A DNA stretch of 64,000 nucleotides. Origin: Natronococcus sp. A-GB1 (GTDB lineage: Archaea; Halobacteriota; Halobacteria; Halobacteriales; Natrialbaceae). Positions 28,829 through 47,115 of this stretch are shown piece after piece. The stretch is taken from NCBI RefSeq assembly GCF_029688845.1, contig NZ_JARUKW010000001.1, positions 186,001 through 250,000 on the forward strand, given 5' to 3'. Position 1 is the first letter of the stretch; every line of letters begins with the position of its first letter. A program made the translations under genes and the position numbers. The notes beneath the pieces were generated by a model. The model was given only the letters and a program-made list of their open reading frames with translations. It was not told where the DNA came from and did not search any database.

Positions 28829-28903
28829 GGGCCCTTAGCTCAGTCTGGTTAGAGCGCTCGGCTCATAACCGAGTGGTCGATGGTTCGAATCCGTCAGGGC
28901 CCA
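28829..28903 (+). tRNA. tRNA-Ile (CAT anticodon, Ile2)
   Basis: 75 nt with all arms pairing: acceptor GGGCCCT/AGGGCCC, D-arm GCTC/GAGC, anticodon stem CTCGG/CCGAG with loop CTCATAA (anticodon CAT at 28864-28866), T-loop TTCGAAT, discriminator A. The CAT anticodon with this acceptor is the archaeal AUA-reading tRNA-Ile whose C34 becomes agmatidine, not a methionine tRNA. No 3' CCA is needed beyond the encoded bases. Its 3' end is repeated downstream (see satellite). Confidence 0.93.
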
Positions 28904-29109
28904 TTGAACGCCGTGAGCGATGTGAACGGCGTGAGATGATTCCTGCAGATTCGAACCAGACTGAGGTTCTGCGAGTAACGCGAGCAGGTTCTCGGGCGAG
29001 GTACGAATCTGTCAGGGCCCATCTACCTCGTGGCGAACAGTCCGTGAGCCGCGAGTACGGGATCACTGGTGGATTCGAATCGGACGACGGCTCGCTTCGC
29101 TCGCCGTCG
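28904..29109 (+). repeat. tRNA-Ile satellite: hairpins plus inverted and direct copies of the tRNA 3' end
   Basis: Directly after the tRNA: hairpin ACGCCGT-GAGCGATGTGA-ACGGCGT (28908-28932); an inverted copy of the T-loop region, GATTCGAACC (28949-28958); hairpin CTGAG-gtt-CTGC-GAGTAACGCGA-GCAG-gtt-CTCGG (28961-28995); then a direct copy of the last 23 nt of the tRNA (28999-29021, 20 of 23 identical). A second, incomplete unit follows: hairpin CTCGTGGC-GAACAGTCCGTGA-GCCGCGAG (29027-29055), GATTCGAATC (29072-29081) and hairpin CGACGGC/GCCGTCG with an 11-nt loop (29085-29109). The inverted and direct copies can pair, placing the inner hairpin on top of a tRNA-derived stem. Confidence 0.8.
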
Positions 29110-39364: not shown

Positions 39365-39587
39365 CTACGATTCTGCGACGAACAAACGTGAGGAGTGAAT
39401 CGTAGCGCGAGGCGGGTTCTAATCAGGGAGCAGCGTTGCTGCGACCGTGGTTCGAACCCGCCCGAGCCCATTTCTCTGGCGAACAATCCGTGAGCCAGAG
39501 AAATGTATACGAGGGCGGTTCGAATGAGACGAGACGCGCGCAGCGAAGCGAGCACGTCTTGGCGTAGTTCGAACCTGCTCGAGCCCA
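39365..39587 (+). repeat. tRNA-Val satellite: two units with copies of the tRNA 3' end
   Basis: Unit 1: hairpin CTACGATTC/GAATCGTAG (39365-39405) whose loop holds GACGAACAAACGTGAGGAG; an inverted T-arm copy GGCGGGTTCTAATC (39411-39424); short hairpin GCAGC-gtt-GCTGC (39430-39442); direct copy of the tRNA's last 24 nt, all identical (39447-39470). Unit 2: hairpin TTTCTCTGGC-GAACAATCCGTGA-GCCAGAGAAA (39471-39503, 10 bp perfect); inverted copy GGGCGGTTCGAA (39514-39525); hairpin AGACG/CGTCT (39527-39559); direct copy again (39564-39587, 21 of 24 identical). The rest of the intergenic sequence to 39849 shows nothing I recognise. Confidence 0.82.
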
Positions 39588-40507: not shown

Positions 40508-40581
40508 GCCGCCTTAGCTCAGACTGGGAGAGCACTCGACTGAAGATCGAGCTGTCCCCGGTTCAAATCCGGGAGGCGGCA
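40508..40581 (+). tRNA. tRNA-Phe (GAA)
   Basis: 74 nt: acceptor GCCGCCT/AGGCGGC, D-arm GCTC/GAGC, anticodon stem CTCGA/TCGAG with loop CTGAAGA (anticodon GAA at 40542-40544), T-arm CCCGG-TTCAAAT-CCGGG, discriminator A40581. All stems pair. It is followed by a satellite unit that repeats its 3' end. Confidence 0.94.
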
Positions 40582-40707
40582 TGTTTCAAAACCGCGAGCG
40601 TAGCGAGCGGGTGCGGAAACTGGCGCCGAACGGATTTGAACTAGACTGAGGTTCTGCGAGCAACGCGAGCAGGTTCTCAGGCGTAGTTCACAATCCGGGA
40701 GGCGGCG
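40582..40707 (+). repeat. tRNA-Phe satellite unit
   Basis: Hairpin with outer stem GTTTC/GAAAC and inner CCGC-GAGCGTAGCGA-GCGG (40583-40620); inverted T-loop copy GGATTTGAAC (40632-40641), the exact reverse complement of the tRNA's GTTCAAATCC; hairpin CTGAG-gtt-CTGC-GAGCAACGCGA-GCAG-gtt-CTCAG (40646-40680); direct copy of the last 20 nt of the tRNA with one inserted C (40686-40706). The second hairpin is nearly identical to the one at tRNA-Ile (28961-28995), although the tRNA-derived parts differ. Confidence 0.82.
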
Positions 40708-42193: not shown

Positions 42194-43210
42194 TCAGTGC
42201 ACGCGGCTACCGCCGACGAACTCCTCGGCGGTTCGCTCGCCGGACGCGAACTCGATCGCTCGCGCATCGACCGTTTCCGTGTCGAGGTCGGTCTGGGTGA
42301 CTAGCAGCCGCTCCAGTGCTGCCTGCCACTGCTTGTAGTACGTCCGTTCGGTCGCGTCGGCGTCCCCCCAGTCGACGCCGTCGGCATCGGTGGGCGTCGC
42401 CTCGACCTCGTCGATCAATCGCTCCTGAAACGCCGACCAGTCGAACCCCGAATCGTTCTCGTACAGGGCGACCGTCACCCCGAATGCGCGTGCCTGCCAC
42501 GGAGCGGCGAACGTCGGCTCCGTCTCGAGGCCGAGCAGCTCCGCGAACGGCGCGTCGCCCTCGTCGCTGCCGCCGTCGGTCACCCGCTCGGTGGACGCCG
42601 ACGAGGACGCGTCGAGTCGCTCGACGCCGATCATCGCGTCGCGAGTGACGAGGTCGATGAGGTCGGCCTCGTCGTACCCCGCAGTCCCGTCTGGACGTTG
42701 TGGGAGCACCATGTACCGGATCTCCGAACTCGAGTCCCAGACGTCGACGGTGACGTCCTCGTCGAGTTCGAGCCCGAACTCGGTGAGGACGGATCGCGGC
42801 TCCCGGACCATCCGTGATCGGTACGACGGCGTCTTGTACCACGTCGGCGGCAGGCCGAGCAGCGACCACGGATAGCAGGAACAGAGCGTACAGACGACCG
42901 AGTTGTGTACGTTGTCGGTGTTCTCCTTTACCTCGATGTGTTGCATCCCGACGTCGAAATCAAACGAGTCGAGTGCGGCCTCCGCGTCGGCGAGCAAGCG
43001 ACGCTTGAACTCGGCGTCGGTCCAGGCCCGGGTGACGACGCGTGCGCCGTTCTGTGGACCGACGTCCCGCTCGTACGCGGAGATGGCCTCGTCGATCGCG
43101 TCCGTCGAGACGATCCCCTTCTCGACGAGCAACGACTGGATGGCCCGGACACGAGGACGCGGGTCCGTGGCCGTCTCGTCGTCGTGGCCGTGATCGTGAC
43201 CGTCACTCAT
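42194..43210 (-). CDS. nthA: Nitrile hydratase alpha subunit fused to its activator domain
   Basis: A 338-residue protein. Residues 1-200 are the alpha subunit; the metal site VCTLCSCYPW has Cys107, Cys110 and Cys112, and the CTLC spacing with Thr is that of cobalt-type enzymes. LVTRDAMIGVERL ends the alpha part. Residues 220-338 are a nitrile hydratase accessory/activator domain (FAAPWQARAFGVTVALYEND, then YYKQWQAALERLL), usually a separate gene. The His-rich N-terminus (SDGHDHGHDDE) may bind metal. The start overlaps the end of the beta subunit gene by 8 nt. The enzyme hydrates nitriles to amides. Confidence 0.88.
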   Translation of the reverse strand: MSDGHDHGHDDETATDPRPRVRAIQSLLVEKGIVSTDAIDEAISAYERDVGPQNGARVVTRAWTDAEFKRRLLADAEAALDSFDFDVGMQHIEVKENTDNVHNSVVCTLCSCYPWSLLGLPPTWYKTPSYRSRMVREPRSVLTEFGLELDEDVTVDVWDSSSEIRYMVLPQRPDGTAGYDEADLIDLVTRDAMIGVERLDASSSASTERVTDGGSDEGDAPFAELLGLETEPTFAAPWQARAFGVTVALYENDSGFDWSAFQERLIDEVEATPTDADGVDWGDADATERTYYKQWQAALERLLVTQTDLDTETVDARAIEFASGERTAEEFVGGSRVH

Positions 43211-43922
43211 CCATGCCACCCCCGACGGGTCGCAGGTACGGTTCCCAGAGGTCGACGTTGACCGTGTCGTCGGGGCTCTCGGCGTCGGGGCCCCACAGCT
43301 CGGTCGCCTCGAACGCGACGGTGTACAGCGGTTCGGCGCGGTCCTTTCCCTCGACCCTCGCGTCGGGGAAGACGTGTCGGTCGTGGACCTCCCGTACCAC
43401 GCCGGACGTACGCCGAACGTACCGCGGACAGCGCGTGTGCCCCTCCGGGTGAGCGTTCCGGACCCGGACGCGGTCTCCCTCGGCGAACGATGGCTCCCCT
43501 CCCGACCGGTCGAACGACGCCGGCTGCGCGAACGCGTCGCGGATGCGGGCGGCGAGTTCGGGGTCCTCGCCTTCGGGGACGAGGTCGCCCGGCTTCTCGA
43601 GGTCGCGGGCACGCTCATAAGCAGCTTCGATCTCCGCCTCGGTGAGGACCTCCGCTTCGACGAGATTGCGCTCGAGACTGGTCAGCCACCGCTCGAAGTA
43701 CGAGGCCGATAGATACTCGGCCGGAGGCATTCGCTCGATTCCGTATCGACTCTCGTCGATGTTATACACACCTTGTGGGCGTACCGTCCGAACCAACCCG
43801 AAGACGATCCGTTCCCACTCCGCATGAAACTGGACGTCGTCCTCGACGGGGACGCGGCCGAAGCCGTGCATCCCACCCATGTCGTGGATACCGTTCACGA
43901 TAATCGTGTTGGCAATACTCAT
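43203..43922 (-). CDS. nthB: Nitrile hydratase beta subunit
   Basis: A 239-residue protein. It starts MSIANTIIVNGIHDMGGMHG, the typical beta-subunit opening (NGIHDMGGM-GFG), and contains FHAEWERIVFGLVRTV and, at the C-terminus, the barrel segment GDRVRVRNAHPEGHTRCPRY with TVNVDLWEPYLRP. It is transcribed before the alpha-activator fusion on the minus strand; the order beta-alpha-activator is that of cobalt-type operons. Confidence 0.9.
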   Translation of the reverse strand: MSIANTIIVNGIHDMGGMHGFGRVPVEDDVQFHAEWERIVFGLVRTVRPQGVYNIDESRYGIERMPPAEYLSASYFERWLTSLERNLVEAEVLTEAEIEAAYERARDLEKPGDLVPEGEDPELAARIRDAFAQPASFDRSGGEPSFAEGDRVRVRNAHPEGHTRCPRYVRRTSGVVREVHDRHVFPDARVEGKDRAEPLYTVAFEATELWGPDAESPDDTVNVDLWEPYLRPVGGGMDE

Positions 43923-46999: not shown

Positions 47000-47115
47000 A
47001 GATTCGGGTGCGAGAATCGAAATCCGCCGAGACGTGCTCGCTCGCTGCGCGCGACTCGTCTAGTTCGATTCTCTCCTGGGAATTTTCGCTCCTCACGTCC
47101 GTTCGTCGCGAAAAA
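47000..47115 (-). repeat. tRNA-His satellite unit
   Basis: Reading away from the tRNA on the minus strand: hairpin TTTTCGC/GCGAAAA (47083-47114) with loop GACGAACGGACGTGAGGA, almost the same loop as at tRNA-Val; an inverted T-arm copy GAGAATCGAA (47063-47072); hairpin AGACG/CGTCT (about 47030-47061) with a GCGCGCAGCGAGCGAGCACG core like Val unit 2; then a direct copy of the tRNA 3' part (47002-47021, 17 consecutive identical bases at 47005-47021). The inverted and direct copies pair over 10 bp. Confidence 0.8.

Follow-up and report, generated by a model that had tools for sequence, protein, structure and literature searches.

More than half of the tRNA genes in Natronococcus sp. A-GB1 are followed by short units in which two hairpins alternate with inverted and direct copies of the 3' end of the adjoining tRNA gene. 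Alignments of orthologous sites in close relatives establish, as far as sequence comparison can, that whole units have been gained or lost exactly, with the tRNA gene left intact, and that the two hairpin slots are replaced independently of each other.

In the window (the whole stretch of 64,000 nucleotides analyzed here), a sequence-only reading had noted two nearly identical hairpins next to different tRNA genes and had interpreted them as a shared element that adopts the local tRNA sequence. The near-identity was borne out: 33 of 35 positions match between the hairpins at 40646-40680 and 28961-28995. Their shared 29-base core has exactly two exact matches in the window, and none was found in any of 100 shuffles with three mismatches allowed. 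In both cases the flanks are an inverted and a direct copy of the local tRNA sequence, namely CGGATTTGAAC ... AATCCGGGAGGCGGC for tRNA-Phe and GATTCGAACC ... GGTACGAATCTGTCAGGGCCCA for the tRNA with anticodon CAT. Folding of the whole Phe unit and the whole CAT-tRNA unit gave z-scores of -5.2 and -5.1, each surpassing 200 of 200 dinucleotide shuffles. The coordinates of both tRNA genes were confirmed by ARAGORN and Rfam; the CAT-anticodon tRNA is labeled Met by ARAGORN, and the Ile (Ile2, CAU) of the sequence-only reading is possible. A scan of the window at Rfam gathering thresholds returned tRNAs only.

Hairpin B, the shared hairpin, is one module of a larger unit. Its anatomy was derived by reading 3' of all 44 Rfam tRNA genes of the 4.5-Mb genome, where the tRNA, ending in a first copy T+1, is followed by hairpin A, T-, hairpin B and T+2, in some cases repeatedly. 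T+ denotes a direct copy of tRNA positions 54-73, and T- denotes the T-loop and 3' T-stem copied in inverted orientation. The units are gene-less, measure about 90-200 bp and start T-rich immediately 3' of the tRNA; some tRNAs carry two to four in tandem, and the period over 217 units has a median of 123 bp (5-95% range 88-198). The direct copy starts sharply at T54 and ends at N73, with an identity of at least 0.83 and mostly above 0.9 over these positions, and positions 49-52 of the T-stem 5' strand are not copied. T- tracks the local tRNA at the variable positions 57, 59, 60 and 62-65 (z 3.5-13.6 against permuted tRNAs). These values are inflated by descent, because related units were counted together, and the effect spans many tRNA types. 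Unusual T-loops are mirrored in the arms as well, as in the tRNA-Lys of Halovenus (TTCAACT; L203). The features of the window are listed in Table 1; as a unit is also present at tRNA-His, all four of its tRNA genes carry units.

Table 1. Host tRNA genes and unit modules in the window
Feature	Coordinates	Strand	Support or remark
tRNA-Phe(GAA), host gene; positions 54-73 are the first T+ copy	40508..40581	+	ARAGORN, Rfam
Phe unit, module A: T-rich/A-rich hairpin and spacer	40582..40630	+	
Phe unit, T-: inverted T-loop and 3' T-stem of tRNA-Phe	40631..40641	+	
Phe unit, module B, class 1 hairpin (includes 40646-40680)	40642..40686	+	
Phe unit, T+: tRNA-Phe 54-73 in direct orientation, with one base inserted in the T-loop	40687..40706	+	
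CAT-anticodon tRNA (ARAGORN: Met; possibly Ile2)	28829..28903	+	ARAGORN, Rfam
CAT-tRNA unit, module A	28904..28945	+	
CAT-tRNA unit, T- inverted arm	28946..28957	+	
CAT-tRNA unit, module B, class 1 (includes 28961-28995)	28958..29001	+	
CAT-tRNA unit, T+ direct copy	29002..29021	+	
CAT-tRNA second, decayed unit (A, T-, B; right T+ lost)	29022..29109	+	ortholog in L110
tRNA-Val(TAC) unit 1, missing from close relative G003	39365..39470	+	
tRNA-Val(TAC) unit 2, common to G003 (98% identical)	39471..39587	+	
tRNA-His(GTG) unit; T- and T+ both carry the His T-loop variant TTCGATT	47005..47115	-	

Several side observations accompany this inventory. The hairpin A of the decayed CAT-tRNA unit is joined to a class 1 B in genome G007. 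In unit 1 of tRNA-Pro(TGG) (L016), hairpin B contains an extra palindromic insert of about 85 bp, perhaps a MITE. On the 3' side of tRNA-Phe in several genera (L082, L090, L097, L100, L301) there is a conserved partial tRNA-Phe copy, which runs from the anticodon arm to the T-stem 5' strand, is split at about G53 by two hairpins and then continues from the T-loop to the acceptor end. Apart from the units, an open reading frame on the minus strand (42194-43618) combines matches to the nitrile hydratase alpha chain and to the beta N-terminal domain, an apparent fusion within one frame.

The units are specific to the tRNA that they follow. Scored against its downstream DNA, the tail of a tRNA itself reached a mean of 14.3 and the tails of other tRNAs 7.7, with foreign tails matching at the unit-calling threshold in 2.3% of cases. 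Chance similarity as the source of the hairpin and flank matches is rejected by these scores together with the shuffles and the arm covariation. According to ARAGORN-based counts, at least one unit is present at 25 of 40 tRNAs in this genome, 27 of 38 in its closest relative G003, 23 of 38 in G002 and 21 of 41 in G007; the unit counts in these four Natronococcus genomes include a few tandem whole tRNA genes, for example for Asp and Thr. Small samples from other families yielded 7/12, 6/12, 2/12, 1/12 (G049) and 0/14 (G045) tRNAs with a unit, and the trait is therefore widespread but uneven.

The genome-wide search for the hairpin and its flanks that the sequence-only reading had proposed supports a shared hairpin wearing the local tRNA sequence. 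In relatives, class 1 hairpin B lay 3' of a tRNA with matching flanks at 33 of 33 re-read loci, with Phe, Leu, Ser, Trp, Val, Arg, Gly, Lys and Pro as hosts; seven further fetched loci failed the stricter hairpin B motif and were excluded from this score. Among 84,980 bacterial and archaeal species in GTDB there were 29 exact matches to hairpin B, all of them haloarchaeal; for 27 of these, an intact tRNA lies no more than 800 nt upstream. Another has a tRNA-Phe tail across a 3.5-kb integrated element, which brings the tRNA-flanked matches to 28 of 29, and the last is cut by the edge of its sequence. A common occurrence without tRNA flanks, which would have refuted the earlier interpretation, was not seen in the relatives or in the GTDB collection. 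In the genome of A-GB1 itself, a hairpin A motif was located at eight places, each of them close to a tRNA.

Comparison with G003 reveals both occupied and empty sites. Ile(GAT) and Lys(TTT) have a unit in A-GB1 and none in G003, and Pro(GGG) and Thr(TGT) have one in G003 and none here; across these empty-site comparisons both genomes keep an intact tRNA, and the flanking 60 nt show 88-98% identity. At Val(TAC) the additional unit of A-GB1 is the tRNA-proximal one, and its second unit corresponds to the sole unit of G003. Modules also differ within units. In Ser(TGA) unit 1 and in Arg(TCT), hairpin A and the arms are kept and B is different from that of G003. The CAT tRNA has an A of 93% and a B of 48% identity to G003, whereas tRNA-Phe has an A of 50% and a B of 100% identity; compared with G002, the Phe values are 94% for A and 52% for B.

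The two modules differ in how far they travel, with B moving between tRNA types and hairpin A largely not doing so. Among the unit pairs with at least 90% identity, A yielded 0 across types and 47 within a type, and B yielded 21 and 98, respectively (Fisher p = 0.001). Units were collected for this set regardless of their hairpin B, type refers to amino-acid type, and the test was made on pairs, which are not independent events. The contrast could stem in part from faster evolution of A. The pattern fits an exchange bounded by the universal T-loop, in which B could be swapped while the arms stay in place. Inverted copies of B were found in 0 of 76 class 1 and 0 of 28 class 3 cases; T- and T+ therefore do not act as freely inverting sites, and site-specific inversion of B was rejected. 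T+ decays with distance from the tRNA, the first copy being the better one in 30 arrays and the second in 10 (p = 4e-4). Such decay is expected if new units enter beside the tRNA, but refreshing by gene conversion would look identical. Proximal entry is not a strict rule in any case, because the extra unit is distal in some orthologous arrays, for example at Gly(TCC) and Leu(TAG).

In this genome, integrase elements identify the T-arm as a site of recombination. There is no proximal unit at tRNA-Val(CAC), Arg(CCG) and Arg(TCG), and exact copies of their positions 54-73 lie elsewhere, directly at or before a unit (C8:115311, C5:9181 and C10:32274). Each of these distal att sites adjoins a tyrosine-recombinase gene (PF00589); two of the recombinase reading frames (L406, L407) pass the Pfam threshold, and another recombinase gene (L408) is located about 550 bp 3' of tRNA-Arg(TCG). 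The candidate integrases occupy L406:5913-6929, L407:4858-5895 and L408:6845-7966. Our integrase listing comprises general PF00589 matches only. The displaced units at the far att sites were recorded at L406 (G000:C8), L407 (G000:C5) and L409 (G000:C10). As the assembly is in contigs, the joins between tRNA, element and displaced unit are inferred. Each of the three integrase elements separates a tRNA precisely from the unit that it displaced, which indicates that recombination at the T-arm is live in this genome. In Halovivax sp. KZCA124 (L191), two near-identical copies of the Phe unit lie on either side of a 3.5-kb stretch that holds a broken integrase gene and, near its far end, an Mrr-type restriction nuclease gene, as if the element had carried the unit along with the attachment site. 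The integrases act on the T-arm site near the units, which themselves are gene-less, and no movement of a unit by an integrase, or by any other enzyme, has been shown. Viral vehicles were considered and dropped, as neither a phage collection nor three pattern scans of viral contigs yielded a unit; plasmid records gave one hit only, a partial one in N. bangense that covers 44% of the query.

We posit that the units are gene-less cassettes, zero to four per tRNA, which are moved by T-arm recombination, exchange B via the T-loop and have their arms corrected by template switching, a proposal that could equally well turn out to be wrong. An array would read T+ (tRNA 54-73), A, T-, B, repeated and closed by a last T+. 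As we infer from the comparisons above, recombination at the T+ and T- sites would add and remove units and transfer them between genomes, probably with tRNA-targeting tyrosine integrases as the catalysts and alternative T+ copies as their substrates. B may be exchangeable between tRNAs because the T-loop that bounds it is universal, and A may not be, because a foreign acceptor strand would then enter the tRNA. Mismatches between T- and T+ would be corrected by hairpin-templated (template-switch) repair, which would explain why the arms match the local tRNA; template switching is known to homogenize the arms of inverted repeats (PMC8604942, PMC8794818). The apparent adoption of local sequence is better explained by T-loop recombination plus arm matching than by a single mobile piece that copies its target. 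Most likely the cassettes are selfish or neutral passengers of tRNA attachment sites, and any function remains unproven.

The units resemble integron cassette arrays (attC) in outline, as both are tandem arrays with folded inverted half-sites, a G/TT junction and older copies at the distal end. Unlike integron arrays, the units lack genes, have a different site sequence and occupy many target loci. We can only tentatively raise the possibility of a dedicated haloarchaeal cassette system, in which a recombinase recognizing folded T-arm half-sites would insert, remove and exchange the gene-less hairpin cassettes of most tRNA genes. Crossover would take place in the universal T-loop, and essential tRNAs would repeatedly be rebuilt with a replaced 3' end.

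The closest known architecture is that of the tyrT/tyrV 178-bp repeats of Escherichia coli (rttR / tpr region). In strain MG1655, direct copies of the tRNA-Tyr 3' end recur at a spacing of 178 nt (AATCCTTCCCCCACCACCA), one in each downstream repeat, and in each tyrV repeat (L385) an inverted, tRNA-derived arm (GGGGAAGGAT) pairs with the direct copy over about 11 bp around a GC-rich hairpin, as in the haloarchaeal units. The E. coli repeats differ from the latter in being restricted to one bacterial locus, including the CCA, forming a longer unit and containing an annotated sRNA and a small ORF, and no sequence homology was shown between the two. Given this layout the architecture is not unique to haloarchaea, and the new part is the tRNA-wide arrays together with modular exchange. 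We found no description of these units in the open literature, only provirus-linked tRNA duplications; the subscription literature was mostly not covered, and an earlier description is not excluded.

The annotated RttR RNA of the E. coli region also lends support to a reading of the units as functional, structured 3' trailers, in which the tRNA transcript would run into A and the T-/B/T+ hairpin, serving tRNA maturation control or as a small RNA, with the arms matched by compensatory selection. The fixed orientation relative to the tRNA, the strong folds, the arm covariation and the T-rich start right behind the tRNA are all consistent with it, and since no inverted B was seen and folding of the units is strong, a transcribed trailer function is still possible. 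Yet about 40% of the tRNAs have no unit, orthologous tRNAs differ in unit number and content between close species, and some haloarchaea (G045, G049) showed almost no units in the small samples. We regard a trailer function as the basis of the units as unlikely.

Tyrosine-integrase attL/attR sites in tRNA genes share with the units an exact 3' duplication that flanks the insert and leaves the tRNA intact, and the same T-arm is used here. The units could accordingly be nothing but footprints of ordinary tRNA-targeting elements, each a dead remnant between two att copies without any exchange system; the integrase elements of this genome, the duplicated unit of Halovivax and the provirus-related tRNA 3' duplications known in haloarchaea (PMC3119063) would all be in line with this. 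However, units differ from attL/attR in being short and gene-less, with an inverted half-site and two hairpins, in tandem and at most tRNAs. The same hairpin module at many tRNA types and genera, the regular inverted arm, the narrow size and the independent replacement of A and B would be unexpected from random remnants, and we consider footprints alone improbable.

Still more doubtful, in our assessment, is that replication template switching and slippage at palindromes make and reshuffle the units without any recombinase. Template switching at quasi-palindromes perfects inverted arms and can use microhomology (PMC7202029, PMC8794818, PMC8604942), but it would hardly import a near-identical B module from a distance or insert exact units at the tRNA end.

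Haloarchaeal MITEs, PATEs and SMRs are short, non-coding, palindromic mobile repeats (PMC3119063), and the units are like them in these respects. They are unlike them in their tRNA-matched arms and in that class 1 hairpin B was found only at tRNAs. The units do not fit the definition of a MITE by terminal inverted repeats of a known transposon at varied genomic sites, class 1 B and, in this genome, the hairpin A motif being linked to tRNAs only. A single mobile hairpin with simple target-site duplication fails to explain the tRNA-matched inverted arm and the difference between A and B. A retrotransposed or tRNA-primed origin of the inverted 3' copy was dropped on inspection, as T- spans the T-loop and no consistent CCA complement is present.

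tRNA genes are classical integration targets, and a turnover that repeatedly replaces the 3' ends of essential tRNAs with exact copies, with arrays at the majority of the tRNA genes in one genome, is undescribed in the open literature searched. With it, the tyrT repeats of E. coli turn from an old oddity into an instance of a general pattern. The T-loop as a recombination site, the harmless spread of small elements between tRNAs and the upkeep of matched inverted arms have now become testable.
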